Shown: positions 412 to 13,927 of the stretch, piece after piece
Layout of the letters: every line of letters starts with the position of its first letter
Position numbering within the stretch: the first letter of the stretch is position 1
Assembly (NCBI RefSeq): GCF_900105765.1
Contig: NZ_FNTX01000002.1
Coordinates: forward strand, 248,001 to 312,000
DNA from: Ruania alba
Lineage (GTDB): Bacteria > Actinomycetota > Actinomycetes > Actinomycetales > Beutenbergiaceae
Reading direction: 5' to 3'
Length of the DNA stretch: 64,000 bases
Notes under the pieces: generated by a model
The model's input: only the letters and a program-made list of their open reading frames with translations
Told to the model about the DNA's origin: nothing
Databases searched by the model: none
Translations under genes and position numbers: made by a program

Positions 412-2181
412 TCAATTGATCTTCACGACGGCGCCACTGACCTCGGTGCTGGCGCTGCCCTTGATCACTGTGGTCGTCCCGGTCACGACCGCACGAGTCT
501 TCGCGGACGCCTCGAACGTCGTCGACGCCTTCGCTTCGACGTCCATGCCTTCGAGGGTCAGCGACTGCTTCGCCTTCATCGTGATGCTCGCGGCGTTGAT
601 CGTGAGATTCCCCCTCCCGTCGAACGTGAGCGACGCGGCACCGGAGCCCTCACCCGAGGTGATCACCAGTGGCGTCTCGGCAGCGTGGATCTCCGTCTTG
701 TCCTTGCCGATCCGCACATAGCTGCGATCGCCGGCCAGCGCCATCCGCACGTACTGCTCCGCATCCGCCTTCCCGTCTGCGATCTCGATCCGATGACCTT
801 CCCGGGAGACGAAGTAGCGGGTCGTCACCTCAGAACTGTTCGGGGCGAGCGCCGGTGTGGGGACGGTGCTCTGCTTCCCGAACAGCCCGCCGAGGACGAC
901 CGGCCGGCGCACGTCCCCGTCCTCGAACGCGAGGAGCACCTCATCGCCCACCTCGGGGAGCACCACCAAGCCCCGGTCGGGACCGGCGCCGAGAGAGAGC
1001 ACCCGGGCCCAGGACGAGGATGCCGAGTCCGAGACGCCTTCGAGCGCCACCCGGACCCGGCCGCGCTGGTCCGGGTCGTTGATGTTGTCGACCCGTGCGA
1101 CCGTGATCCCGGTGTGCCGCAGGCTCGAGGCCGACGGCGGAGCGCGCCACGGATCGGTGAGCCGAACCGGTGGCCGGTCCCCCACCACGAAGGTGGTGCG
1201 CAGCGAGGTGGCGTCGACCTGGTGCGAGACCTCACGCACGTAGTAGGTCCCGTCCGCGCTGCCCGCGGACCGGATGGTGACCAGCCCTCCCGGCCGTAGC
1301 CCCGGTATGAAAGAGCCCTTCCCTCTCCCGCTGACCCGGCCGGCAGCTGCCGCCAGCCCGCCGGCCACCTCCTTCGCCTCCGCTTCGGTCATGGACAGTT
1401 GCCGGGTCGCCAGCACCGGGGCCGACTTTCCGCCGTCGACCGGTGCGAAACCATTGCGATCGCCCGGGGTTCTGGTAGTCGCGCGCCCGGTCACACTCCG
1501 CTGCCGCTCGGGGTCCCAACCCCGGACCGTGAAGCTGCTCGGCCCGGTCTCCTCGCGCCGGACAGCGAAGCCAATCAGCTCCACGCCGAGGTCCAGGATG
1601 GGCGCCTCACCCGCCCAGGGTGCCGATCCCGAGACGGGCCAGACCGCGAACCGTTCCTCGAGCACAGCCCAGTCGCAGCCCAGCCTGCCCGCGATCTCAT
1701 CCACGAGGCCGAGCCGGGAGTCGGCCCGGAACGCCCACGCGTGGGTGCCGCCAGGCACATCGACGTCGGCACGCAGCCCCGCCCCCTGAACCGTCGAACG
1801 GATGATGTCGGCGTCGGACATCTTCTGGTGCGTGGTCACGGCACGATCGCGGGAGAGGTCATAGGCCTGGTCATGCACGGTGGCGGTCACGGTCGCGCCG
1901 CGGTCGGTCGCCTCGAGCTCGACACCGGTCACGGTGCCGGAGAACACGACCTGAGCGGGCGAGACCGATGAGATCGTCACCGTCTTTCCCAGCTCGACGA
2001 CGCCGCCGGCGAACGTCCCCCGGTCGAGGAACCGCACCTGTGCCCGCCCGATCGTCCGAACACCGGTGTCGACCCGGATCTCGAGCAGATCGTCAGCGAG
2101 CTCTGTCCGCAGCTCGGTACCCTCGATCTCCACCCGCAGCTGGGTCTGGGTGTGCGGGTCCTGGTGCGCCTGCGCCGTCAT
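412..2181 (-). CDS. VgrG-like spike protein (gpD/gp27 + gp5 OB fold)
   Basis: 589 residues. Residues ~15-330 resemble the phage late-control gpD/gp27 hub domain. Residues ~350-450 contain a gp5/gpV OB fold, seen as 'VARVDNINDPDQRGRVRVALEG' split by 'WARVLSLGAGPDRG' and 'LPEVGDEVLLAFEDGD', followed by 'RPVVLGGLFG'. The last ~90 residues are repetitive short strands (LTINAASITMKAKQSLTLEG and following), as expected of a trimeric beta-helix needle. Such proteins form the spike at the tip of the tube. The start is ATG 2181, overlapping the stop of the LysM gene by four bases; longer readings of this frame run through the LysM gene and are not needed. No separate PAAR tip protein is visible in the window. 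Confidence 0.93.
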   Translation of the reverse strand: MTAQAHQDPHTQTQLRVEIEGTELRTELADDLLEIRVDTGVRTIGRAQVRFLDRGTFAGGVVELGKTVTISSVSPAQVVFSGTVTGVELEATDRGATVTATVHDQAYDLSRDRAVTTHQKMSDADIIRSTVQGAGLRADVDVPGGTHAWAFRADSRLGLVDEIAGRLGCDWAVLEERFAVWPVSGSAPWAGEAPILDLGVELIGFAVRREETGPSSFTVRGWDPERQRSVTGRATTRTPGDRNGFAPVDGGKSAPVLATRQLSMTEAEAKEVAGGLAAAAGRVSGRGKGSFIPGLRPGGLVTIRSAGSADGTYYVREVSHQVDATSLRTTFVVGDRPPVRLTDPWRAPPSASSLRHTGITVARVDNINDPDQRGRVRVALEGVSDSASSSWARVLSLGAGPDRGLVVLPEVGDEVLLAFEDGDVRRPVVLGGLFGKQSTVPTPALAPNSSEVTTRYFVSREGHRIEIADGKADAEQYVRMALAGDRSYVRIGKDKTEIHAAETPLVITSGEGSGAASLTFDGRGNLTINAASITMKAKQSLTLEGMDVEAKASTTFEASAKTRAVVTGTTTVIKGSASTEVSGAVVKIN

Positions 2182-2843
2182 GACGCCTCCACCCGTGGCA
2201 CGGCGAGCATCGTCCCTGGCCGGACGGCCAGCGGATCGGCGATGCCGTTGGCATCGGCCAGAACGCGCCAGCGGGTCGCGTCCCCGTAGTAGCGGGCGGC
2301 GATGCGATCGAGGGTCTCCCCCGCGAGCACACGGTGCACGCGCTGCGGTTGCGGGGTCCCGGAGGTGGGATTCTGCGGTCCGAACGCCCGTGACTCCTCG
2401 TACTGACGCAGCACGAGCGCGAGCTTCGCGCGCAGTGGTGTGCCGCTGGCCGAGAAGTACGTGAAGGTGAGGCCGAGCGATGCCACGACCGCCTTGAAAG
2501 AGTGCAGATCGCCCCAATGGAAGGTCACAGCCGGTGGTCGCGCATTCCCGCTGGCGGCATCGGAGCCGGGGAGCGAGGGGTCGATCTCCATCAGCTGCAC
2601 GATCCGGCCGGTGTACTTCGTGACCGGGCTGCCGTCGTGAGTGGTGTCGAAGAACAGGTCGACGGCAAGCGAGCCGGGTTCCGAGCCCGCGTACCGGAGG
2701 CGAGGAACGCCGCGGCCGGGTCGGGTCGGGGCCTCCCAGCGGTTGCCCCTGCTCAGATGCAGCTGGGCCGGATTGAACAGACACGGCAGCTTCTCGCCCC
2801 CCTCGACCTCGAGGAACGCCTTCACCGGTCCGGTCTCAGCCAT
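2178..2843 (-). CDS. LysM-domain contractile injection system tube/baseplate protein
   Basis: 221 residues. The N-terminus (EVEGGEKLPCLFNPAQLHLSRGN) is the pattern of the CIS tube protein N-terminal domain seen in Afp7/Pvc7-type proteins. Residues ~168-217 form a LysM motif (VHRVLAGETLDRIAARYYGD...ANGIADPLAVRPGTML). In related systems the protein joins the inner tube to the VgrG hub. It begins one base after the stop of the 812-residue upstream protein and overlaps VgrG by ATGA, so it belongs to the same transcript. Confidence 0.9.
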   Translation of the reverse strand: MAETGPVKAFLEVEGGEKLPCLFNPAQLHLSRGNRWEAPTRPGRGVPRLRYAGSEPGSLAVDLFFDTTHDGSPVTKYTGRIVQLMEIDPSLPGSDAASGNARPPAVTFHWGDLHSFKAVVASLGLTFTYFSASGTPLRAKLALVLRQYEESRAFGPQNPTSGTPQPQRVHRVLAGETLDRIAARYYGDATRWRVLADANGIADPLAVRPGTMLAVPRVEAS

Positions 2844-5282
2844 CTAGAACACCTCCATCCCGCGGCGCCAGGCTCGTCGCTCGGTCTCCTCCCGCAGCCT
2901 CTCCTCGACGACGGCCATCACCCGCTCGTCGAGTTCGGTGTCGAGCCATTCATCGACCCGGGTCAGGACGCGGTCCTCGAGGTCCCGCACCCAGGAGGGC
3001 TCGACGTTGGCACTGCTGCCACCGGGTTCACGCTCCTGGGCCGGCAGGAACGAATAGCTCATGCTCATCGGAGTGTCCTCTCGGCGGCGGGGGATCGATG
3101 GTGATCCGGCCGTGGACGGCGGTGGGGGCGGTCCGGAGCCTCGGCGGTACTGCGCATGTGAACCGGCTGAACGTGGCGGATCAGCCGAGCTTGTCCAACC
3201 AGCCGAACGGGGCGGCCCGGTCAATCCCCGCGCACCCTGCGGGCCGGCACGGTGGAGGCCGGCACCGTTCTGGGGGTAGGCACCGTGCTGTGGCCCGGCG
3301 TGGGCTGGGGTGGCGGTCTGTGCCGGGCGGCGAGCCGACCGTGGCGGCACCACGGCGAGCCCCGGCGTCGCCGAACCTCCGGACGGGAGCCCGCCGGGAG
3401 ACCCTCCCGCTGGGGCGCCCGGTGCGGGCCGGCCGCCCATCACGCCGTCCATCCCGGCCACCGCCGGTGTGACTGTGGTCGCGGCAGGCACGCCTCGGTG
3501 CCCGCCGATCACGCCCAGCGTGCCTGGCTCGTGAGAGGCGTTCTGGCGTCCGGGTCCCGCACCGCCGGGTGGGGCCGGTTCTCCTGCCGGCTGCCACGCT
3601 CCCCATCGATGCGACCCCGGCTGGAGCGACGGCCGGGCAGAGGTGCGGTCGCGGCGCAGGTGCGGGTCGTCGATCCCGAGGCCGGTCCAGGAGCGACGCC
3701 GGATCATGATGGTGCGGTAATGTCCGGCTCCAGGCAGGCGATCTCCAGCGGCCCCCGTGGAGCGGGGCTGCGCTGGCACACTGCCCGCAGATGCTTCGGT
3801 GACAGCACTCATCTCGGTGGACGTCGTGATCTCGGTGGACACGGCACCGGGATCGCCGGCCCTGGGTGCTCGTGACACCGAGATCGCACCGGTGGGCCGT
3901 CCGCGGACGCTCACGCGCCGGACCGTCGAGGGGGCCGTCGGCCGTGCTCGTCCGAGGGGATGCACACGCTGCCCTGCTACCGACGCCGGTGCGGCAGCAC
4001 CCATGGGGAGGTCGAGCAATCGTGCTGCTCTCGTGATCGGCCCGAGAACGTGACCAGACCGCTGTGCGAGTGCCCCCGGTCCGCCGTGGCAGCCACGCGC
4101 CATCCCCTGGAGCCCTGGCGCGCTGGCATCGGGCAGCACCTGCCCGCCGGTATCACGCACAGTGCCGCGCTGCATCGGCTCGCCGGCAGGTCGCGCCGTG
4201 CGGGGCGACGTGACGTGCTCGGCGGAACCGGCGGGTGAGGTGACCTCAGGTGCGCTCCTGGTCGTCACGGAGGTGCTCGTCGGTGTGATCGCGTTCGTTC
4301 GCGCAGGCACCGTGGTCGTGGCGCTCGTAACGACGGATGCCGGACTGGCATCGATGCGCTGCGGACTGCGGGGGATCCGCGCTGACGCCACAGTCTGCGT
4401 GGCCCGGGCTCGGCGCCGCACCAGGCGTGAGGTCAGGGCAACAGCAGATGCGCTGAGCGTCGCTGCATAGCCTGGGAGTCCGCCGGCGGGCGAACCCTCA
4501 CTCGATATCTGGCCCCACTGCGCGCCGGCAGGGCCCCGGACAGGGCCAGTCGCACGCCTCCCTCCGCCGTCAGAACTCTCAGGATCGACGATGGCAGCCG
4601 GGTTCCCTCGGGCTCGGCCGATATCAGGATTGCCGCTGGTTCTGCCATGCCTGCTCGGTCCAGGCAACTCGCCCGGTCCAGGCTGCCCACCCTGCCCGCG
4701 CTGTCCGCTCTGTCCGCCTGGTCCAGGCTGCCCACTCTGCCCGTCCTGCCCACGCTGGCGTCCGCTGGCGGCGGACCGTGGGCGTCGGCGCACCACCCGG
4801 CGGGCGCGGGCGTCGGCGGGGGTGGTCATCCGGCCGACTGCTGCGACCTCTTCGGGCAGCTGCATCGGAACCGCCTGCGCCGTCATGGTGGCCGGGATAC
4901 GGCCGGGCCGGTGCGACGCCTCGTCCGGAACGGGACCCACGGCCCGCCGGAGACCACGGGCGGGCAATGGGCGGTCCGCCCGGGTGCCGCCGAACCACCA
5001 CCGGGGTGGCCTCACCCCGGACTCACGCTCACCGACGTCCGCGCTGCGGGAGGACCCAGCCGTGGCCAGTGCCCGACGTACGGCGCCCGGCCGGCCCCAT
5101 CCGCTGACGAACCGCATCGAGGATGCGGCCAGTGCCCCGATCTTGCTCGGGCGAGGCCCACCCCAGGGGCCAGCATGTCGATAGCGCTCCGCGATCTGCC
5201 CACCCATCGAGGTCTCGCCGGGCAGGGGCAGATCCGTCTGGTCCGGTTTCTGCGTCGCTGCCGGCTCCGGCGCCCCAGTCAT
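2844..5282 (-). CDS. Large disordered eCIS protein with collagen-like tract and conserved C-terminal helix
   Basis: 812 residues, not recognised as a known family. It starts MTGAPEPAATQKPD at an ATG overlapping the stop of the tube-like gene (ATGA) and ends one base before the LysM gene, so it is embedded in the structural operon. Most of it is Pro/Gly/Ala/Arg/Ser/Thr-rich and probably unfolded. Residues 178-204 are nine Gly-X-Y triplets, mostly Gly-Gln-X, like collagen. Residues ~305-350 are Ser/Thr-rich. The last ~55 residues (WVRDLEDRVLTRVDEWLDTELDERV onward) form a charged amphipathic helix, the only part that looks conserved. An internal ATG at 3068 has a good Shine-Dalgarno (AGAGGA) and would give this C-terminal 74-residue product alone. 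It could be a tube-lumen, tether or sheath-associated protein; function is unknown. The opposite strand also carries long open frames here, so the reading frame rests on the tight coupling at both ends. Confidence 0.65.
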   Translation of the reverse strand: MTGAPEPAATQKPDQTDLPLPGETSMGGQIAERYRHAGPWGGPRPSKIGALAASSMRFVSGWGRPGAVRRALATAGSSRSADVGERESGVRPPRWWFGGTRADRPLPARGLRRAVGPVPDEASHRPGRIPATMTAQAVPMQLPEEVAAVGRMTTPADARARRVVRRRPRSAASGRQRGQDGQSGQPGPGGQSGQRGQGGQPGPGELPGPSRHGRTSGNPDIGRARGNPAAIVDPESSDGGGRRATGPVRGPAGAQWGQISSEGSPAGGLPGYAATLSASAVALTSRLVRRRARATQTVASARIPRSPQRIDASPASVVTSATTTVPARTNAITPTSTSVTTRSAPEVTSPAGSAEHVTSPRTARPAGEPMQRGTVRDTGGQVLPDASAPGLQGMARGCHGGPGALAQRSGHVLGPITRAARLLDLPMGAAAPASVAGQRVHPLGRARPTAPSTVRRVSVRGRPTGAISVSRAPRAGDPGAVSTEITTSTEMSAVTEASAGSVPAQPRSTGAAGDRLPGAGHYRTIMIRRRSWTGLGIDDPHLRRDRTSARPSLQPGSHRWGAWQPAGEPAPPGGAGPGRQNASHEPGTLGVIGGHRGVPAATTVTPAVAGMDGVMGGRPAPGAPAGGSPGGLPSGGSATPGLAVVPPRSARRPAQTATPAHAGPQHGAYPQNGAGLHRAGPQGARGLTGPPRSAGWTSSADPPRSAGSHAQYRRGSGPPPPPSTAGSPSIPRRREDTPMSMSYSFLPAQEREPGGSSANVEPSWVRDLEDRVLTRVDEWLDTELDERVMAVVEERLREETERRAWRRGMEVF
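3066..3081 (-). promoter_or_regulatory. Candidate internal ribosome-binding site and start inside the disordered eCIS gene
   Basis: On the minus strand GAGAGGACACTCCG precedes an in-frame ATG at 3068. AGAGGA with a seven-base spacer is a better Shine-Dalgarno than most starts in this operon. It would allow separate production of the 74-residue C-terminal segment. No stop codon separates it from the upstream reading frame. Confidence 0.45.
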
Positions 5283-5752
5283 GCCGTCACCGCACGGAAT
5301 CCGTTGTGTGCGACCTCAAGGGTCTCGTTCAGCGGTGCATCCGAGTCGGCAAGCAGCTGCGGCCCGCTCCAGCTCACGGCGAACACACCCTCCAGCTCCC
5401 ACGATCGCATCCGGTCGCCGGTGTGGTTGATGACCGTGACGGCCCCGGTGGCGCGCGTCAGCACGTTGTCGTTGCCGGCGAAGCCCGCCCCCGAGCTCTT
5501 CGCCACCCAGGTGAACAACGCGTCGGACTGCACCAGCCCGCGAGTGAACACCAGATGGGGCCACCGCATCACACCCGGGAGCTGATGCACGTAGGAGTTC
5601 TGACCACCCTCGACGTACTCCTCGACGGCCACGTCCAGCTGCAGTCCCGAGACCTCCCGGAACGTGCCGATCTCCACACCGTCCACCTCGAAGAGGAAAC
5701 GGCTCGACGTCGACGGCTCGCCTCCGAGCGGCGCCAGGTCAGGCGTTCTCAC
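5279..5752 (-). CDS. Second gp19-like tail tube protein
   Basis: 157 residues of the T4 gp19/conserved phage tail protein family. Features are 'FLFEVDGVEIGTFREVSGLQLDVAVEEYVEGGQNSYVHQLPG', then 'LVFTRGLVQSDALFTWV', and a C-terminal 'ELEGVFAVSWSGPQL'. eCIS loci usually encode two or more tube paralogues; this one is distal to the main tube gene at 6402 and may form the tube end contacting the baseplate. The start is GTG 5752, overlapping the DUF6760 gene by 14 bases. Confidence 0.92.
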   Translation of the reverse strand: MRTPDLAPLGGEPSTSSRFLFEVDGVEIGTFREVSGLQLDVAVEEYVEGGQNSYVHQLPGVMRWPHLVFTRGLVQSDALFTWVAKSSGAGFAGNDNVLTRATGAVTVINHTGDRMRSWELEGVFAVSWSGPQLLADSDAPLNETLEVAHNGFRAVTA

Positions 5753-5912
5753 GGACCATCTCCCACGCGTGTTCGTTCATTGCCGAGACCGCACGGACCA
5801 TCCGCACCCGGTCGAGGTGCTCGAGGTCCAGCAACTCCTCGAGCGGCCAGTGCAGGTGATAAGCGAGGTAAGCGATCTCCTGCCAGAGCGCATCCGGCGG
5901 ATAGTGCAACAT
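5739..5912 (-). CDS. DUF6760-like small eCIS protein
   Basis: 57 residues, beginning MLHYPPDALWQEIAYLAYHL and containing HWPLEELLDLEHLDRVRMV. This short helical protein is a regular member of actinobacterial phage-tail-like loci, placed between the assembly protein and the second tube gene, as here. It is too short for most ORF filters but lies tightly inside the operon: seven bases after the assembly gene stop and overlapping the next gene by 14 bases. A role in tube or baseplate assembly is inferred from position. Confidence 0.85.
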   Translation of the reverse strand: MLHYPPDALWQEIAYLAYHLHWPLEELLDLEHLDRVRMVRAVSAMNEHAWEMVRENA

Positions 5913-5919
5913 CGGACGA

Positions 5920-6399
5920 TCACCCGGTCTCGCCGGGGATCTCCTCGATGGCGGATCGCCGTGGCCGATGCCTGCCGGCGCCTTCCGCGTCGATCCTCGA
6001 CTGCAGCTCGGGACCGTCGGCAGCAGGCTCCGCCACCCCCGTCGGTTCCGAGGGTGGCACGGACCGCTCGGTCACCGCATGGGCCGCGACGAACTCGTCG
6101 AACTCTGCTTCGGTGCCGAAGTTGATTACGCCGTAGAAGTCCTGCAGAAACGCCAGGTCCGCCGCGAACAGCCCTTCGACCTCGTGCGGCGTGACGAGCT
6201 CGAGCGATCCGAGCTGCTCGACCACGCGGGCCAGCACCAGCACGGTCAGTCGCGGGTCGTCCGATCCCGTGATCGTCGGATCGCGGAGCGGTTCGAGCTC
6301 GTCACGCGCGGTCGCGAGCCGCATCGTGCCCCCGCGATGGACAGTGCCGTGATCGTCGACATAGCCACGCGGCAGCGTGAACTCATAACTGGTACGCAC
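5920..6399 (-). CDS. Phage tail assembly protein of eCIS
   Basis: 159 residues, beginning VRTSYEFTLPRGYVDDHGTV (GTG start, two bases after the tube stop). It shows 'MRLATARDELEPLRDP', 'RLTVLVLARVVEQLGSLELVTPHEVEGLFAADLAFLQDFYGVIN', a pattern found between tube and baseplate genes of contractile tails and resembling assembly chaperones/tail assembly proteins. The C-terminal ~45 residues are variable and polar. A longer reading frame starts upstream inside the tube gene and was not used. Confidence 0.82.
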   Translation of the reverse strand: MRTSYEFTLPRGYVDDHGTVHRGGTMRLATARDELEPLRDPTITGSDDPRLTVLVLARVVEQLGSLELVTPHEVEGLFAADLAFLQDFYGVINFGTEAEFDEFVAAHAVTERSVPPSEPTGVAEPAADGPELQSRIDAEGAGRHRPRRSAIEEIPGETG

Positions 6400-6401
6400 G
6401 C

Positions 6402-6875
6402 CTACTTGATCCGTTCGAGCCGTTCGATGACGATCGTGATCGTCTCTTTCAGTGCATCCGATCCATCCACGGACAACTGATCGGTCGCGATCTTGCTCGG
6501 CCAGCCGTTGAAGAAGTTGAACCTGGCGACCTCCGTGCTCGCAGCGTCGTAGAGGACGACTGATCCGTTCTTGCGGTTGCTGGCGCGTTCGCCAGCCAGC
6601 CCACCTTCGCGGACCTTCTTGAACCACTTCCAGAGCTCGTCGTTGTCGATGTCCGCCGGGGCCACGCGGGTCAGTGACAGGTCGGAAACCTCGACGGTCT
6701 GGCCGAGGAACTTCACCTGCTGCTTCTGTCCCTTCTCGCCGATCTGGGTGGACTTCCCGACGCCGACTTCGACGTCGAGCCCGGAGACGGTCATGAGCGC
6801 GGAGACGACCTTGCCGTCGATCTCCAGGAAAAAGTTCTGCGTGATGATCGGGTCGGCGGTGAACAGGCCAGCCAT
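6402..6875 (-). CDS. eCIS inner tube protein (gp19-like)
   Basis: 157 residues, beginning MAGLFTADPIITQNFFLEID, with 'GLDVEVGVGKSTQIGEKGQKQQVKFLG' and 'NFFNGWPSKIATDQLSVDGSDALKETITIVIERLERIK'. This is the standard T4 gp19-type tail-tube fold, and the C-terminal strand pair is typical of the main tube subunit. The hexameric rings stack inside the contractile sheath. It follows the sheath gene by 51 bases and precedes the assembly gene by two. Confidence 0.94.
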   Translation of the reverse strand: MAGLFTADPIITQNFFLEIDGKVVSALMTVSGLDVEVGVGKSTQIGEKGQKQQVKFLGQTVEVSDLSLTRVAPADIDNDELWKWFKKVREGGLAGERASNRKNGSVVLYDAASTEVARFNFFNGWPSKIATDQLSVDGSDALKETITIVIERLERIK

Positions 6876-6926: not shown

Positions 6927-8492
6927 TCAGGAGGCACTCAGCTTGTTCTGACTGACGCGGAAGATGACGAACTCGGCGGGCTTGACCGGCGCGAGGCCCA
7001 CCTCGACGACGAGCTTGCCCGCATCGATGGACTCCGGCGGGTTCGTCGTCTCGTCGCACCGGACGAAGAACGCCTGGTCCGGGGTGGCCCCGAATAAGGC
7101 GCCTTCCTGCCACAGCCCGTGCAGGAATCCCGTGAGAGTCCGCTTGACGCCCTCCCACAGCGCAGTGTCGTTGGGCTCGAAGACCGCCCATTGCGTCCCC
7201 TCGAGAATGGTCGACTCCACCATGTTGAACAGGCGCCGTACGTTGAGGTACTGCCAGTCGGTGTCGGAGGACATCGTCCGCGCACCCCAGATCCGAATGC
7301 CGCGGATACCGAACGGCCGAATCGCGTTGATCCCGATCGGGTTGAGGATCGACTGTTCGTTCTGCGTGATGCTCTGCTCGACGTCCAGCACCCCACGAAT
7401 CGTGTCGTTGGCGGGCGCCTTCCAGACCCCACGACTCTCGTCGGTGCGAGCCCAGACCCCGGCGACGTGCCCCGACGGTGGGATCAGGATCTCCGCTGTT
7501 CCGTTGCTGCCCGTCGGGTTGTCGACCTTGATCCATGGGTAGTAGAGCGCGGCGAAGCCCGAGTCGTACTGGGCGGCGTCCGCACGCCAGTCACGCACGG
7601 CCTGCGGGCTCAGCCCGGGGGGAGCGTCGAGCAGCGCTATCCGGTTGGAATGCTGCTCGCAGTGGGCGATCAGTGCCGTCTGCACCGCCTTCCACATGCC
7701 CAGGTCGAGCGAGCCGTCCTCCTTGGTGGCCGCAGTGACCAGGTCGGGAACGGTGACGATGGTGACGTCCTCGGCGAGCGCGAGGCCATTGATGCCAGTG
7801 CGGGCCGACTCGGAACCGGCGAACTTGCGCGGTGAGACGGGCACGCTCACCGGGGCGGCCTTCTCCAGCTGGTACGCGCCTGGCTTGAGCAGCTCGAGCT
7901 GGTCCTCGAGGGTGACGTCGGTAGCGAGGTCGACCTTCACCTTCACCTTCGTCGATCCCTCGTTCACGATCGTGGCGGCGTCGCGCGGGCCCCCGAAGGT
8001 GAGATCGGAGAAACGCTCGACGACCTCGTCGTTCTCCAGCACGGTCAGCGAGAACGGTGTCGGCCCCTCGAGATCGTCCGGGGCGTCGGCGGACTCGATC
8101 GCGATCGTGAGGTCGGCATCTGGGGCGATCGACTCCACTGTCAACGGCATGCCCAGCGCACGATCAGCAGCCGGCAGCGCACGCGTGGCCGCCTCTCCCG
8201 ACGGTTCGGCGTTCGGTACCCGCACGATGTAGGCGAGGGAGCCGCCATTGAGGAAGTAGCCATAGACCGCCAACGGCAGCATCGCCCCGTCGACGAATCC
8301 GCCGTACATGCTCTCGTATTGCGACCAGCTGGTGACCAGCCGGGGCGCGAGACCCTGCGGATCCTCAGGGTCCGAGGGAGCCGTCTGGGTGAATCCGACG
8401 AACGCGGTCACCGCAGTCGGCGCGGCGGTCAGGACCTTCTGCGAGGACGGGACCTCTTCGACGTAGACGCCGGGCGCTGTGTACGTGGGCAC
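6927..8492 (-). CDS. eCIS contractile tail sheath protein
   Basis: 521 residues. It starts PTYTAPGVYVEEVPSSQKVL after a GTG (8492), with AAGGA about seven bases upstream; the longer reading starting near 8669 lacks sheath similarity. The N-terminal 'PGVYVEEV' and the C-terminal subtilisin-like sheath domain (DWQYLNVRRLFNMVESTILEGTQWAVFEPND, then ...GALFGATPDQAFFVRCDETTNP, and a final strand VGLAPVKPAEFVIFRVSQ) are hallmarks. The sheath contracts to drive the tube out. As first gene of the operon it faces the divergent LuxR regulator, so the promoter lies in 8493-8685. Confidence 0.95.
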   Translation of the reverse strand: MPTYTAPGVYVEEVPSSQKVLTAAPTAVTAFVGFTQTAPSDPEDPQGLAPRLVTSWSQYESMYGGFVDGAMLPLAVYGYFLNGGSLAYIVRVPNAEPSGEAATRALPAADRALGMPLTVESIAPDADLTIAIESADAPDDLEGPTPFSLTVLENDEVVERFSDLTFGGPRDAATIVNEGSTKVKVKVDLATDVTLEDQLELLKPGAYQLEKAAPVSVPVSPRKFAGSESARTGINGLALAEDVTIVTVPDLVTAATKEDGSLDLGMWKAVQTALIAHCEQHSNRIALLDAPPGLSPQAVRDWRADAAQYDSGFAALYYPWIKVDNPTGSNGTAEILIPPSGHVAGVWARTDESRGVWKAPANDTIRGVLDVEQSITQNEQSILNPIGINAIRPFGIRGIRIWGARTMSSDTDWQYLNVRRLFNMVESTILEGTQWAVFEPNDTALWEGVKRTLTGFLHGLWQEGALFGATPDQAFFVRCDETTNPPESIDAGKLVVEVGLAPVKPAEFVIFRVSQNKLSAS

Positions 8493-8685
8493 TGGACATC
8501 CTTTGGTAGGGCGGAACCGACGCTGGTACGGGTCCCGATTTGCTGCCGTCGGCGGCACGTTCTCGAGCCCCGCTCCGCCGTCAGCGTAGGAACCGCCCTG
8601 CACGGGGCCATCGGTAATCGGTACCGAAGTTTCGCCGGTAGACCCGACCAGATGTGTACAACCGTTCAACGTTTCCCTAGGGTCG
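8493..8685. promoter_or_regulatory. Divergent intergenic region between eCIS operon and LAL regulator
   Basis: 193 bases separate the sheath start from the first LAL regulator start, so both promoters must be here or within the flanking genes. Visible symmetric elements are a GGTACC inside ATCGGTAATCGGTACCGAAG near 8613-8632 and a TGTACA at 8654-8659. No clear -35/-10 pair could be assigned on either strand. Confidence 0.5.
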
Positions 8686-11367
8686 ATGCCTGTGACAGGT
8701 GAGCCAGATCACGACGACCGCGGCACGCTCACCAGCGCCCACGCCCTGAGCACTCGATCACGTGAGGTGGCTGGTGCGTCGAGTGCGGGCACCCCCAGCG
8801 CCGCTGCCGACCACGCGCCGGCCCAGCAGATCGAGCAGGTCCACCAGCTCGTGCGCTCGCTGCACGCCGGACGAGGGACCCTCGTCTTCGGCGAGGCCGG
8901 CGTCGGCAAGTCGCACCTGGTCTCCCGAGCGCTGATCGGAGAGGGATACCCGGACGAGATCGCGAGCCCGTCACTCCCGCCACCACCGACGACGCCCCTG
9001 ACCACCGCGTTCGAGGGGTTGGTCCACCTGCTCAGCCTCACGCGCCGCCCCGCCACCGCCAGCGAGGCCGCAGTCGTCGTGCGGCAGCAACTCACGCCCG
9101 CGAGCTCGGGTCGGTGCCCGCCACTGCTGCGGGTCGACGGAGCGCACCTCCTCGACGACGCCAGTGCCGCCGTGATCGCCGAGCTGGCTCGACGTGGCCA
9201 CCTCACCCTCGTGGCGACGGCCCGCCCCCATGCCGCCGCCACCGCCCCTTGGTACAACCTGTGGCACGACGCGATCCTCGACCGGCTCGACATCCATACG
9301 CTCCCCGCCCACGAGATCGAGGGCCTTCTGACCTCGATGCTCGGCAGCCCGGTCGCCCCCGGCATCCTGCACTACCTGTGGAGTCGCAGCGGCGGCAACG
9401 CGCTCCATCTGCGTGAGCTCGCCGTCAGCTTGAACGCAGCGGGTGGGCTCACGGCCGATCGACCGGTCCGCTCCCTCACTGTCATGCCGGAACCGGCACC
9501 CGCCTTGCTGGCAGTCGCCACCACCGAGCTGGCCGACCTCAGCGAGAACGCGTTGCACGCCCTCCGAACTCTGGCGCTGCTGGGCCCGCTCACGCTCGGG
9601 ACACTCCGCGACAGTATCGACCGGGGCACGGTCGAAGGCCTCCTGCAGCGCGGCCTGATCCGCACGCGACCGGCCGAACGCCTCCCGGAGCTGATGGTCG
9701 AACCCGCCCACAACCTGCTGCGCGAGGCGCTGCTCAGCACGATGCCGCACGATCAACGGCTGGCGATCCTGCGCCACGCTACCGGTCATGGAGGGGGCGG
9801 AGGCGTCCTCGGACGCCAGGCGGTGCTCCTGATGCTCTCGCAGGGATGGCCACTGGGGTATCCGACCATCCGCGGTGCGGTGGCCGAAGCGTTCTCCCAT
9901 CACCGTCCGGATGAGGTGGTCTCGCTCGTGGATGCCGCGTTCGGCCCCACCGGGAGCAACCGCCTGAGCACGATCGAGACGATCAGCCTGCTGCTCGATC
10001 GAGCCGAGGCACACCGCCTCCTCTCCGACGCCGACGCCGCACTGGATGACATCGCTGCCCTTCTCCCGCAGCTGCGTGGCGCCGTCGCCGCTGCCCCCAC
10101 TGATGCACGCCTGCCCACCCTCGTGCTCACAGCCGCACGGCTGCGTGCCGATCTCGAGCAGCACGATCAGGACGACCTCGACGCCGCGCTGAGCTCTCTC
10201 GCCGAGGCGAACCAGTGGATGTCCGAGCTGCCGGTGCCCGAGCACGCCGACGGTCCACGCGTCGAGCTCGAGGTGTCCCGACTGCGCCACCTCGGCTACG
10301 CCGGCAGGCACCGCGACGCCCGTACCCGCTCCCTCACCCTGCTGAACGAGATCGGCGACCCGAGGTTGGTCCTCCCGCTCGTCTACCCCACCGGGATGGG
10401 CCTGCTCCAGGCCGGTCAGTTCGACGACGCCTGGAGCATCGCTGCCCGCTATCGCTCCGCGATTTCGGCAGGATCGGACGCCCGCGGCGAGGCGGCGGAC
10501 GAGCTCGCCGCACTGCAGGTCCTCGCTCACCTGGCGGCAGGAGAGATCGACGAGCTCGAGGCCCTCGCACCGACCCGGTTCGACTCGCCTCGGGCGGGCG
10601 CCAGGTGGTTGGACGTACACGTCGGCGCAGGCTTGACCGCAGCCGCGCGCGGCGCCTGGTCACGGGCACAGCACCGGTTGCGGAAGGGACGCGATCATCG
10701 TGACCTGCTTGCACCTCCCGGGATCGACGCCTACGCACGTGCGGTCGAAGCATTGGCCGCGGCCGCCGGGGGCGAGCGGGTGCAGGCGCAGGAACTGCTC
10801 ACCAGCATCCGAAGCATGCCCCGAAGCCAGACGGCAGTGCTGAGTGGCGAACTGCGCCTGCTGCGGCTCGACACCATGCTCTGGCTCCGCTCGCCGTCGC
10901 TGCCCCAAGCCGCACGAGCCCTCGCCTCCTGGGCTCGACTGTCCGGACTGGCGCGTATCGAGATGGAGGCGCTGCACCGGTCGCTCCTGCTCGACCTGCG
11001 CTCCGCGCACCTTCCCTACGACGGCGTGCTGGACCGCATCCGCCAGCTCCGCCAGGACCTCGCCTCACCACGCGCCAGCGCCCTCGCCGCCCACGCCGAA
11101 GCCCTGGCCGATGCCGACACCGACCTGGCCGGCATCGCCGAACGCGATCTCAACGAACGGGGCCTGTGGCTGCCACCAGGACCACGCTCGCACGGTCTCA
11201 CTCCCCGTGAGCGTGAGGTCGCCGCGCTCGCCCGAGCCCGCCTGACGAGCCGCACCATCGCCACCCGGCTCGGGGTCTCCAGCCGTACCGTCGACAGCCA
11301 CCTCGCCAGCGTCTTCGCCAAGCTTGGCGTCTCCAGCAGGGAAGAACTGACCTATGCGCTCCGCTGA
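8686..11367 (+). CDS. LAL-type LuxR family ATPase regulator 1
   Basis: 893 residues. A Walker A (GEAGVGKSH, about residues 70-78) lies in an AAA/STAND-like ATPase domain with Walker B-like 'LLRVDGAHLLDD'. A long helical repeat middle follows, and a C-terminal LuxR helix-turn-helix (GLTPREREVAALARARLTSRTIATRLGVSSRTVDSHLASVFAKLG). The large size and order are those of LAL (MalT-like) activators. It diverges from the eCIS operon and overlaps the next regulator by 14 bases, so a role in controlling the injection system is plausible but inferred. The ATG at 8686 has only a weak GGGT upstream; a slightly later start is possible. Confidence 0.9.
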   Translation: MPVTGEPDHDDRGTLTSAHALSTRSREVAGASSAGTPSAAADHAPAQQIEQVHQLVRSLHAGRGTLVFGEAGVGKSHLVSRALIGEGYPDEIASPSLPPPPTTPLTTAFEGLVHLLSLTRRPATASEAAVVVRQQLTPASSGRCPPLLRVDGAHLLDDASAAVIAELARRGHLTLVATARPHAAATAPWYNLWHDAILDRLDIHTLPAHEIEGLLTSMLGSPVAPGILHYLWSRSGGNALHLRELAVSLNAAGGLTADRPVRSLTVMPEPAPALLAVATTELADLSENALHALRTLALLGPLTLGTLRDSIDRGTVEGLLQRGLIRTRPAERLPELMVEPAHNLLREALLSTMPHDQRLAILRHATGHGGGGGVLGRQAVLLMLSQGWPLGYPTIRGAVAEAFSHHRPDEVVSLVDAAFGPTGSNRLSTIETISLLLDRAEAHRLLSDADAALDDIAALLPQLRGAVAAAPTDARLPTLVLTAARLRADLEQHDQDDLDAALSSLAEANQWMSELPVPEHADGPRVELEVSRLRHLGYAGRHRDARTRSLTLLNEIGDPRLVLPLVYPTGMGLLQAGQFDDAWSIAARYRSAISAGSDARGEAADELAALQVLAHLAAGEIDELEALAPTRFDSPRAGARWLDVHVGAGLTAAARGAWSRAQHRLRKGRDHRDLLAPPGIDAYARAVEALAAAAGGERVQAQELLTSIRSMPRSQTAVLSGELRLLRLDTMLWLRSPSLPQAARALASWARLSGLARIEMEALHRSLLLDLRSAHLPYDGVLDRIRQLRQDLASPRASALAAHAEALADADTDLAGIAERDLNERGLWLPPGPRSHGLTPREREVAALARARLTSRTIATRLGVSSRTVDSHLASVFAKLGVSSREELTYALR

Positions 11368-13927
11368 CACCCACGAGGCCGCGGCGCCTCGCCCGCGACC
11401 GTCCACACCGTCCGCCCCGACCGCGCAGACAGGCCCACCGGCACGACCGGCCTCCGTCCGGGACGCGCTCATGGCCGGACGCTCCGTCGTTGTCCATGGG
11501 GAGGCCGGGACGGGCAAGACCCACCTGATCACCACAGCGCTGCGCGACGGCCTCCCCCCTGCCTGGACCCTCATCGACCTCACCGCCGGTACTGGCGGCA
11601 CTGCGTCGTGGCAACGCCTGGTCGGCGAGGCAGGTGCGCGGGACGGCGTCGAGGCCGGGGCCGCGGCGCTGCAGGACTGGCTCATGTTGCCCCCCGCCGG
11701 CAGAGCACTGCTCCGGCTCGAGGACGCCCACCTGCTCGAGGACACCGTCCTGGCCGCTATCGCCCTCGTGACCCACCGAGCCGACGTCGCGGTCGTGGCC
11801 AGCCACAGCGCTCACCCGAGCGAGCTGACCGCGCTCACGGGTCTGCGGGACGCGGTCACCATCCGCGTCGCGCCGATGAACGCGACACAGACCGAGACAA
11901 TGCTCACCGAGATGCTCGGCGGATTTCCCACCGCCGACGCGGTACACCGGCTGTGGTTGGCCTCGCGCGGCAACCCTTTCTACCTGAGCGAGCTGGTCCG
12001 TGACCATCAGCAGCGCGGCGATCTGTTCGCCCACGACGGCGTCTGGGTGTGGACCGGCATCCCGACGCTGACGGACCGGATGATCGAGGCGGCCTTCCAC
12101 GACCTCGGCGCCCTGACGGAGGCCGAGCGCGATGCCGTCGAACGCGCCGCCGTGGCCGGCGTGATCACCGCAGCGACCGTGCCGCACGAGGTACGCCGGC
12201 GACTACTTCGCCGCGGGCTGCTGCGACCCGGGCCGACCGGCCCGGGGATGGGTGGCCAGTCGCACCTGGAGGTGACCCACCCGCTGCGCGCGGACGCCAT
12301 CGCCGCCCAGGTCTCGACCACCCGCCGCCACGACCTCATCGCCGGCGGGCAGACCACACCGGTTCCGACCGGTCCGCAGGATCTTGTGCGATCCGTCTGC
12401 AGCAGGGTCAGGGCCGAGATCCCCGTCCCGCTGCCCGAGTTGCTGCGGGCGTGCCACCACGTGGTGCGGGCGGACGAGCCGCAGACCGCCGTCGAGCTGA
12501 CCGGAGCGGTGCTGCAGCAGGGAATCGACCCGATCAGCACGATCAAACTCTTGACCGCGCGTGCCACAGCGCACCTGCGCCTGGGCGACATCGACGCCGC
12601 ACTGTCCGATCTCGCGACGGCACGCTCCGCCATGATCCTGACCGACGAGTCCGGAGCAGAGGTCCTCGACGCCTACCTACCGGCCATCCGGCACGAGACG
12701 ACAGTGCGGCACTTTCTCGCCACCGACCCCGAGGCGACCCTCAGCGTGCTCAGCTCGACAGCACGCTGGCTGCGCCCGACGGCGCAGGCGAACAGTCTGG
12801 TCGCGCAGGCGTTGACGAACGTCGAGTCGCTCCGGCTGGCGCACCTGGCGTGGGCGGGTCGGCATCCCGAGATGCTGGACGAGGCGTGGAGCCGGTTGCA
12901 GCACAGCCCCCACCCGGAGCAGGTGGTCCAGCTCGTCGGACCGGCGTCGATCGCCCTCGCCCTGGCCGGCCGTTCCGGGTCTGCCACGGCACTGTTCGAG
13001 CGATTCCTCCCTGTGGTCTCCAGCGACCGTGTGCTGCGGGGATGGGACCCAGGGTCGTTCACCCTGCTCAGGTTCTTCCTGCTCGTGCTCACCGGGGAGA
13101 CGGACGCGGCCGAACGCACCGAACCGGTCGCCGGCACCGACGTCGACATGGTGGGGTGGCACCTGCGCCGCGGGACGGTGGCATCCGCCCGCGGTGACTG
13201 GGCCACCGCCCGGCGGGAGCTGCGAGCGGCGAACGTCCGGCTGCGGGTGCGCGACACCCTGGGAGTCGTGGCATACAGCCTTGCGCAGGAGGCGAAGGTG
13301 GCCGCAGCCTCGGGCGACGGCGTGGCGGCCCGAGCGCTGCTCAGCGAGCTGGCGACGACTCCCCGGCGCTGCTCCTACGTGACCGGCGCCTACCTGGACC
13401 TGCATGTCGTCGATGCCCTCATCTGGCTGCGGGACCCGAGCGTCACGGAGGTCACGGCGCGTCTGATGGAAGCCGCCGCACGCGACCACCAGCACGCCAT
13501 CGAGCTCGAGGCGATGCACCGGCTGGTCGTGGTCGCCGGCCCGTCGGCTGCGCAGGCAGTGATCGGCGTACCACTCGCAGAACGGGTGGCGGCGCTCGCC
13601 GAGCATGTCGACGGACGCCGCAACGAGGCCGTGGTCGCCCATCTCAGGGCGATCCTCGGGAACCGAGCCCGCGCGGTCAGCGACACTGCCGAGCACCTCC
13701 GGGAGCTCGGCGTGATCCTCCCGGTCGTGGTCAAGCCCACCCGTCTGACCCGACGCGAGCGCGAGGTCGCGGCCCTCGCGGCCGGTGGCATGACCAGCAA
13801 GGCGATCGCGCAGCGACTGGTGCTGTCGGTCCGCACGGTCGACTCCCACCTCGCCGGCGCCTACCGGAAGCTCCGGGTCCACACGCGCGAGGGCCTCTCC
13901 GGAGCCCTGACGGCCGCCGACCGGTGA
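11354..13927 (+). CDS. LAL-type LuxR family ATPase regulator 2
   Basis: 857 residues. Walker A is GEAGTGKTH near residue 50, followed by 'LLRLEDAHLLED' (Walker B-like), a helical middle region, and a C-terminal LuxR DNA-binding domain (RLTRREREVAALAAGGMTSKAIAQRLVLSVRTVDSHLAGAYRKL). It is a paralogue of the upstream gene with the same architecture and overlaps it by 14 bases, so the two are co-expressed and may act together. The ligand is unknown. The window context (eCIS on the other side) is the only hint of target. Confidence 0.9.
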   Translation: MRSADTHEAAAPRPRPSTPSAPTAQTGPPARPASVRDALMAGRSVVVHGEAGTGKTHLITTALRDGLPPAWTLIDLTAGTGGTASWQRLVGEAGARDGVEAGAAALQDWLMLPPAGRALLRLEDAHLLEDTVLAAIALVTHRADVAVVASHSAHPSELTALTGLRDAVTIRVAPMNATQTETMLTEMLGGFPTADAVHRLWLASRGNPFYLSELVRDHQQRGDLFAHDGVWVWTGIPTLTDRMIEAAFHDLGALTEAERDAVERAAVAGVITAATVPHEVRRRLLRRGLLRPGPTGPGMGGQSHLEVTHPLRADAIAAQVSTTRRHDLIAGGQTTPVPTGPQDLVRSVCSRVRAEIPVPLPELLRACHHVVRADEPQTAVELTGAVLQQGIDPISTIKLLTARATAHLRLGDIDAALSDLATARSAMILTDESGAEVLDAYLPAIRHETTVRHFLATDPEATLSVLSSTARWLRPTAQANSLVAQALTNVESLRLAHLAWAGRHPEMLDEAWSRLQHSPHPEQVVQLVGPASIALALAGRSGSATALFERFLPVVSSDRVLRGWDPGSFTLLRFFLLVLTGETDAAERTEPVAGTDVDMVGWHLRRGTVASARGDWATARRELRAANVRLRVRDTLGVVAYSLAQEAKVAAASGDGVAARALLSELATTPRRCSYVTGAYLDLHVVDALIWLRDPSVTEVTARLMEAAARDHQHAIELEAMHRLVVVAGPSAAQAVIGVPLAERVAALAEHVDGRRNEAVVAHLRAILGNRARAVSDTAEHLRELGVILPVVVKPTRLTRREREVAALAAGGMTSKAIAQRLVLSVRTVDSHLAGAYRKLRVHTREGLSGALTAADR

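Follow-up and report, generated by a model that had tools for sequence, protein, structure and literature searches.

What does a giant and almost wholly disordered protein do in the middle of an eCIS structural operon? The question is raised by the window analysed here, a stretch of 64,000 nucleotides from Ruania alba (G000:C2:248001-312000, in a 4.83 Mb genome of two contigs), in which a reading frame of 812 codons is lodged between a tube gene and a LysM gene. As the best explanation we tentatively favour a luminal tether-plug, that is, a plug-like tail joined to a disordered chain in the tube lumen, perhaps made in long and short copies. The observations beneath this reading, namely coding, operon position, one protein per anchored locus, a conserved tail and predicted disorder, are supported by the data.

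Operon position and protein anatomy

Transcribed from the minus strand, the eCIS operon has the order sheath, tube1, chaperone-like protein, DUF6760 protein, tube2, 812-residue ORF, LysM protein, VgrG-like spike and gp25 (Table 1). The last of these crosses the window's left edge, past which lie baseplate J and a protein of 204 aa that matches no Pfam family. The locus also encodes an AAA ATPase, and a separate 706-aa eCIS_core protein is found at G000:C2:229403-231520. No tape-measure-like gene was recognised by eye in C2:231-257 kb or on the minus strand of 213-232 kb. A sequence-only reading of the window had described an 812-residue frame that overlaps tube2 by ATGA and abuts the LysM gene, and the coordinates bear this out.

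Table 1. Features of the operon and of the disordered ORF, in the order of transcription (positions in the window)
Feature	Position	Strand	Remark
Contractile sheath	6927..8585	-	start codon not fixed
Tube1 (Phage_T4_gp19)	6402..6875	-	
Tail assembly chaperone-like protein	5920..6399	-	phrog_508, E 4.5e-5
DUF6760 protein	5739..5912	-	
Tube2 (Phage_T4_gp19), tube initiator by position	5279..5752	-	
Overlap of disordered ORF ATG with tube2 stop	5279-5282	-	ATGA
Giant disordered ORF	2844..5282	-	812 aa + stop
N-terminal 170 residues	4773..5282	-	best conserved part of the disordered region
VRPPRWWFG motif	4989..5015	-	
Gly-X-Y run	4671..4751	-	nine triplets; hypervariable between congeners
Ser/Thr-rich block	4233..4400	-	39% S/T; not conserved
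GAGAGGA, Shine-Dalgarno-like site before nested ATG	3076..3082	-	
Nested in-frame ORF (MSMSYSFLP...)	2844..3068	-	74 aa; conserved C-terminal tail, proposed plug module
Tail helix 1, residues 763-783	2934..2996	-	AlphaFold2
Tail helix 2, residues 786-807	2862..2927	-	AlphaFold2
TAG of disordered ORF	2844-2846	-	directly adjoins LysM ATG at 2843
CIS_tube + LysM protein (Afp7 position)	2178..2843	-	
VgrG-like spike (Phage_base_V)	412..2178	-	start codon not fixed

The near-total disorder expected from the letters is matched by the AlphaFold2 model (four-row alignment), with a mean pLDDT of 36.1. Helices of at least four residues occur only at residues 29-33, 65-73, 763-783 and 786-807; ten-residue pLDDT means of at least 60 are confined to residues 761 to 810, where the two C-terminal helices reach about 60-75. 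The proposed charged amphipathic helix at the C-terminus stood in part: the helices are charged, and the hydrophobic moment of helix 763-783 was equalled in 66 of 2000 shuffles, but helix 786-807 is not amphipathic (1309 of 2000), nor is the stretch of both helices taken whole (882 of 2000). The nine Gly-X-Y triplets are present as described, with no run of nine or more in 5000 composition shuffles, and the Ser/Thr-rich block could be located. Conserved motifs, including N-terminal ones, are distributed along hundreds of residues in the congener alignment, and the chain minus its last 70 residues is cationic (+91/-42). Searches of Pfam, PHROG and NCBIfam with the window protein gave zero matches, and it contains neither PF13699 (eCIS_core) nor a recognisable effector domain. 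Beyond the sequence-only reading lie the position of the tail at that of the spike plug, a nested start, a family-wide slot, and eCIS-core and tape-measure-like relatives.

One enlarged slot in each anchored locus

A search with the chaperone-like protein gave at least 591 pattern matches and at least 523 relatives, and the 80 best loci among these were used together with loci collected before; L030, on the same contig as L043, and L040 were removed before the counts over 64 and 67 loci. Among the 64 loci with DUF6760, tube2 and LysM anchors, exactly one of two slots is enlarged in every case: slot A (tube2 to LysM) in 51, with 791-4539 nt and at most 252 nt in the other gap, and slot B (DUF6760 to tube2) in 13, with 1319-3590 nt and at most 164 nt in the other. 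A single frame fills at least 90% of the enlarged slot in 62 of the 64 (exceptions L060 and L095). With looser anchors, the best frames of 67 loci hold 21 stops in all, where about 535 would be expected in a frame, a count that the choice of the best of six frames biases toward openness. The proteins range from 377 to 1501 aa (60 proteins), and most keep a helical C-terminal tail, the pattern that a comparison across eCIS loci had been proposed to look for. On a sheath tree of 60 loci with several weak nodes, slot position changes twice by parsimony. The slot family spans Streptomyces to Chloroflexi, with one such protein per anchored locus.

For the protein set, 26 of 87 rows were excluded, 19 of them with the slot off the contig or an anchor missing; the other seven are L037, L060, L062, L082, L083, L095 and L103. 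L037 and L062 end in the tail when read in the right frame, whereas L082 and L083, from slot A and about 250 aa long, lack it, so that leaving out these two raises the tail count somewhat. The set of 49 used for Pfam and PHROG comprises 61 proteins minus 12. L043 is also absent from the tail-motif, SD-site and duplex-energy counts, and L056 and L067 from the duplex-energy count.

The chaperone was found in 40 of 81 sampled Streptomyces genomes at E 1e-20. The Streptomyces set (n = 25) combines 20 of 48 listed places, two other genomes and three plasmid loci, and in 24 of these a slot-B ORF spans at least 79% of the gap (36% in L163). The length CV of the Streptomyces slot ORFs, 4.6% (n = 15), is no independent evidence of length control, because these ORFs were chosen to exceed 1100 aa. 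Of 12 further loci only L148 and L149 were counted for Streptomyces; a slot ORF with the tail is also present in the uncounted L150, L151, L152, L153, L154, L155 and L159. L158 and L046 are one stretch, L157 is truncated, and L156 has a short slot (561 nt) with an ORF of tail-like end. In L131, on a Rhodococcus plasmid, no tube2 was recognised, and the short ORF in the slot ends much like the tail.

The family also supplies the foremost alternative, which we consider doubtful: an effector, or an adaptor for effectors, akin to eCIS-core proteins and Tme, that is loaded into the tube and ejected, its core domain having been lost in Ruania. The sole Pfam family detected among slot proteins is eCIS_core (DUF4157), in 13 of 49 members. 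Of 46 slot-A proteins, 15 have VRPP-type motifs, and five of these also have the core domain's HExxH; these core-domain members share both the VRPPxWW motif and the tail, and the motif links them to the window protein. The window protein differs from them in lacking the domain, which Ruania holds in its separate gene. The DUF4157 protein Sle2 is reported to interact potentially with SlpT2, which is homologous to Afp5 (PMC13277306).

Among the described cases near to it is Tme (BN159_7576) of Streptomyces davawensis, given in PMC11126660 as a 2247-aa protein that has DUF4157, transmembrane helices by prediction and an endonuclease at its C-terminus. Its gene lies upstream of those for the baseplate, with a locus number two below that of the tube initiator BN159_7578, and the protein was co-enriched with tube initiator and spike in a tip pull-down (PMC11126660). 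Tme is likened to the Ruania protein by a gene position ahead of the tube initiator and baseplate genes, by being the largest ORF in its cluster and by its disorder, put at about 70% in PMC11126660; its DUF4157, transmembrane helices and endonuclease were not found in the Ruania protein. Tme is a described relative by position, which qualifies the earlier statement that no function is described: this holds for the window protein and not for Tme. Against an effector speak the lack of a recognisable effector domain in the window protein and the enlarged slot in 64 of 64 anchored loci, which is the expectation for a structural part.

Probable translation of the body and a putative nested start

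A profile of the 812-aa protein matches four of 24 genomes of the family. In all four genomes with the locus, the frame is open from its overlap with tube2 (ATGA or GTGA in each) to the LysM gene, encoding 812, 835, 894 and 1109 aa. Between congeners whose tube2 and LysM proteins are 96-99% identical, the length of the disordered protein varies by up to 10%, which speaks against the tether-plug reading, and its whole-protein identity over aligned columns is 74%. Indels among the four genomes keep the frame. The body has a dN/dS of 0.50-0.66, whereas values are 0.33-0.42 for the first 170 residues, 0.32-0.46 for the tail and 0.02-0.14 for tube2 and LysM. Because the frame is open in four genomes, is kept by indels and has dN/dS below 1, the ORF is most likely translated with the structural operon, as had been supposed, and a chance ORF is unlikely. 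Against translation, 3 of 3000 sequences simulated with the body's second-order composition were equally open. An opposite-strand gene, named beforehand as evidence that would count against the ORF, did not appear: no reverse frame across it is open throughout in the window, and 65 of 67 loci have their best frame on the strand of the operon. In a tblastn search of plasmids the full-length protein had no match. In a separate tblastn comparison, body matches in many unrelated frames were attributed to composition.

These data bear on a second alternative, in our judgement improbable, by which only the 74-aa tail is functional, as a plug, and the 738 codons upstream are a tolerated in-frame extension or untranslated spacer. 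Consistent with it, the usual strong codon GC pattern is confined to the tail in Ruania (0.72/0.45/0.87), the body having no third-position excess (0.72-0.74 vs 0.74 at position 2); the tail has a ribosome-binding site of its own; and the body evolves fast, with 60-64% identity between congeners (tblastn) against 96-99% for its neighbours. However, body dN/dS is below 1, and the window and L029 differ in the body at fewer second than third codon positions (82 vs 128, p 0.002). Of 61 family members, 56 have a body with GC3 above GC2. Openness of at least 90% is reached by the best frame in 64 of 67 loci and by the second-best in 13, and N-terminal motifs are conserved.

The putative nested start recurs: GAGAGG with an in-frame ATG is found in the window, L029, L030 and L031, where it would start the last 72-74 residues. 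Over 60 loci, an SD-like site precedes 19 of 82 ATGs lying 50-130 codons from the stop, vs 25 of 554 elsewhere. Duplex energies of -6 or below were reached by 16 of 35 near-tail ATGs vs 20 of 315 others in slot-A loci without the core domain, and by 1 of 15 vs 11 of 165 in those with it (rank test p 4e-9 and 0.008, overstated because related sequences are not independent). Half of the core-less slot-A loci (15 of 30) reach the cut-off near the tail and the other 15 fall short; the window's own site, at -5.8, misses it slightly. Among slot-B proteins none of four near-tail ATGs reaches it, vs 9 of 84 others. On a Streptomyces clavuligerus plasmid, the PLSDB gene table lists a 71-aa gene that is the tail alone in the same frame; the 1381-aa slot ORF is absent from this table, which lists an antisense hypothetical gene and describes itself as incomplete.

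A proposed plug-like tail with a disordered chain

Among complete ORFs, ERR[GAVTS] occurs in 40 of 46 slot-A proteins and an aromatic end in 40 of 46, and RER in all 14 slot-B proteins and all but one of the 25 Streptomyces ORFs; in shuffles these ERR and RER motifs are near zero. An alternative tail pattern gave 56 matches over 64 loci, a count that includes false misses and doubtful matches. Slot-A and slot-B tails align with an hhalign probability of 90.6 (E 1.3e-6, near-duplicates removed) and are probably homologous.

Their position suggests a comparison with the spike plug. The AlgoCIS plug Alg6, an Afp6 orthologue that by its number falls between Afp5 and Afp7, is described as an N-terminal strand, a flexible loop and a C-terminal helix; its trimer sits in the lumen-facing cavity of the spike, and assembly needs it (PMC8894135). 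For Anabaena Cis6, a flexible loop extending into a lumen of negative surface is reported (PMC8894136). The 812-aa gene likewise lies between tube initiator (Afp5) and LysM hub (Afp7), at 2178-5752 of the window, and its product has predicted C-terminal helices after a flexible stretch, with a small nested product. It differs by its 738-residue disordered extension and by having no detectable sequence similarity to plugs; a possible counterpart of the N-terminal strand was seen by eye only, in the MSYSFLP stretch, and the AlphaFold2 model shows no strand there. The tails did not match DUF5908, profile comparison with solved plug chains in the PDB gave unrelated matches only (E 0.34 or worse), and a search for a classical plug in Pseudanabaena and Haloferax plasmid loci yielded nothing usable. 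A haloarchaeal system is said, in the account of PMC11566945, to have neither plug nor tape measure.

In the tether-plug that we tentatively favour, the C-terminal 74 residues would replace the spike plug (Cis6/Afp6/Alg6) and, at the tube's base, bind both the spike and the tube initiator. The cationic chain would be anchored at the plug position. The 738-residue disordered, arginine-rich extension would run up the tube lumen, where, in the least certain step, it may act as a tape-measure-like scaffold, a cargo holder or both. The nested start, a site indicated by sequence and enrichment, is predicted also to yield the bare plug, and a particle may therefore hold long and short copies. Gene position favours both the lumen cargo carrier and the length determinant of the sequence-only reading as possible roles.

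Quite improbably, the disordered part could instead be a long loading signal for the AAA ATPase (Pvc15 homologue) and no component of the tube. Such an ATPase is encoded at the locus, and disordered N-termini of eCIS toxins are said to be recognised by Pvc15 homologues (PMC12210884); conserved motifs over hundreds of residues and a gene at a structural slot argue against it. The anchoring fibre of the sequence-only reading, taken as external and collagen-like, has the nine Gly-X-Y triplets in its favour but is rejected as scarcely credible: congener L030 has only a degenerate tract and L031 none, no Pfam collagen match was obtained, and the tail lies at a plug-like slot.

With tape measures (Afp14/Cis14; phage TMP) the slot protein shares large and variable length and a gene position after a chaperone-like gene and before hub genes, and a few relatives of the Ruania protein match TMP PHROGs weakly: four PHROGs are hit by 2, 1, 1 and 1 of 49 members (best E 3e-5). 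One of these, L113 (Actinocrispum), weakly matches two (E 0.004 and 0.006); its model has a disordered N-terminus, then the core domain at about 301-420 with pLDDT above 80 up to residue 390, and long low-confidence helices (445-635) that adjoin a tail helix at 649-670. Known tape measures are helical, whereas the Ruania protein is predicted to be disordered, has no TMP similarity and in the AlphaFold2 model does not show a helical, coiled-coil-rich character; in the window, a slot-A locus, tube2 also intervenes between chaperone and slot gene. Retained chaperone and tape-measure-like relatives suggest descent from a tape measure, or its replacement. No fixed distance per residue could be derived from ruler arithmetic. 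Slot-body charge correlates with tube charge over 60 loci (rho -0.66 for tube2, -0.53 for tube1) and much less within slot A (-0.37 and -0.02); the correlation mostly reflects the A/B split.

Three papers, including PMC10066040 and PMC10286715, report that a tape measure is missing in Streptomyces systems. S. coelicolor particles are nonetheless of uniform length, 268 nm, though the cluster is described as having no tape-measure gene, and their baseplate contains Cis1b/7/8/9/11/12 (PMC12237407). After deletion of three effectors their lumen is described as mostly empty in appearance (PMC10066040), which counts against a chain in the lumen. With the sheath as SCO4253 and the SlpT2 homologue as SCO4248 (PMC10286715), the genes between them would be SCO4249-4252.

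A bolder form of the tether-plug reading, which we regard as rather unlikely, would have one gene serve as both plug and disordered luminal tape measure, with the nested start determining how many short copies accompany the long ones, in systems thought to have no tape measure (Cis14) and in part no plug (Cis6). The arrangement would be common to systems of Streptomyces, Ruania, Cellulomonas, Frankia and Chloroflexi, and public gene tables would in places not show it. The literature covered, mostly at the level of passages and with subscription papers and preprints outside it, gave no account of the slot family, of a fusion of plug and disordered chain, or of the nested start.

We put forward the plug and length roles of the slot protein as hypotheses. 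Slot proteins are testable candidates for parts that their machines are said to be without, and for the tape measure reported missing from Streptomyces systems the slot gene offers a concrete candidate open to genetics. A disordered length determinant, if true, would differ from the known helical tape measures.

Hydrophobic-QR motifs and frame cover of the slot proteins

Many proteins encoded in slot B, the enlarged gap between the DUF6760 and tube2 genes, contain an excess of [LVAIMP]QR motifs (L032-L039 among other loci), as in L032, where 13 were counted against 1.2 expected. Most proteins of slot A, between the tube2 and LysM genes, lack this enrichment, although that of L101 shares it. 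The 1381-aa slot ORF of the Streptomyces clavuligerus plasmid pF1D18A, with 22 hydrophobic-QR motifs, is absent from the PLSDB gene table of that plasmid, which is incomplete by its own description and enters only the final 71 codons as a gene.

At two loci, L060 and L095, the best single frame spans 72% and 62% of the slot, that is, less than 90%, which could reflect frameshifts, sequence errors or split genes. The slot-A proteins of two Nitriliruptoraceae MAGs (L082, L083) are short (about 230-250 aa) and KAAR-rich, and the usual C-terminal tail is absent from them.

Coordinates of slot-associated and neighbouring features
Feature	Size	Location	Strand	Remarks
Slot ORF	1381 aa	L129:9531-13673, Streptomyces clavuligerus plasmid pF1D18A		22 hydrophobic-QR motifs
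Two large LuxR-type regulators (AAA plus GerE), side by side		window 8686-13927		adjoin eCIS operon
eCIS_core protein, separate gene	706 aa	G000:C2:229403-231520 = L133:16403-18520, outside window	minus	adjoins AAA ATPase gene
Small ORF		G000:C2:228936-229457		after the eCIS_core gene
Three large proteins	765, 844, 1949 aa	L002:3247-13926 = G000:C2:234247-244926, outside window	plus	CarboxypepD_reg repeats

Neighbouring genes and candidate effector counterparts

In an alignment of tail assembly chaperone-like proteins, those of the window (5920-6399) and of L029 and L031, two loci with a window-type slot gene, have no Cys-X2-Cys element, whereas the remaining eight sequences all carry one. Relatives of the separate eCIS_core protein occupy open frames of 721 codons (genome G006) and 1089 codons (G004).

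Each of the three plus-strand Ruania proteins has one hydrophobic helix, as judged by eye. In gene layout they resemble Sco4256-4258 of Streptomyces coelicolor, which PMC10066040 reports as effectors of the injection system of that species.
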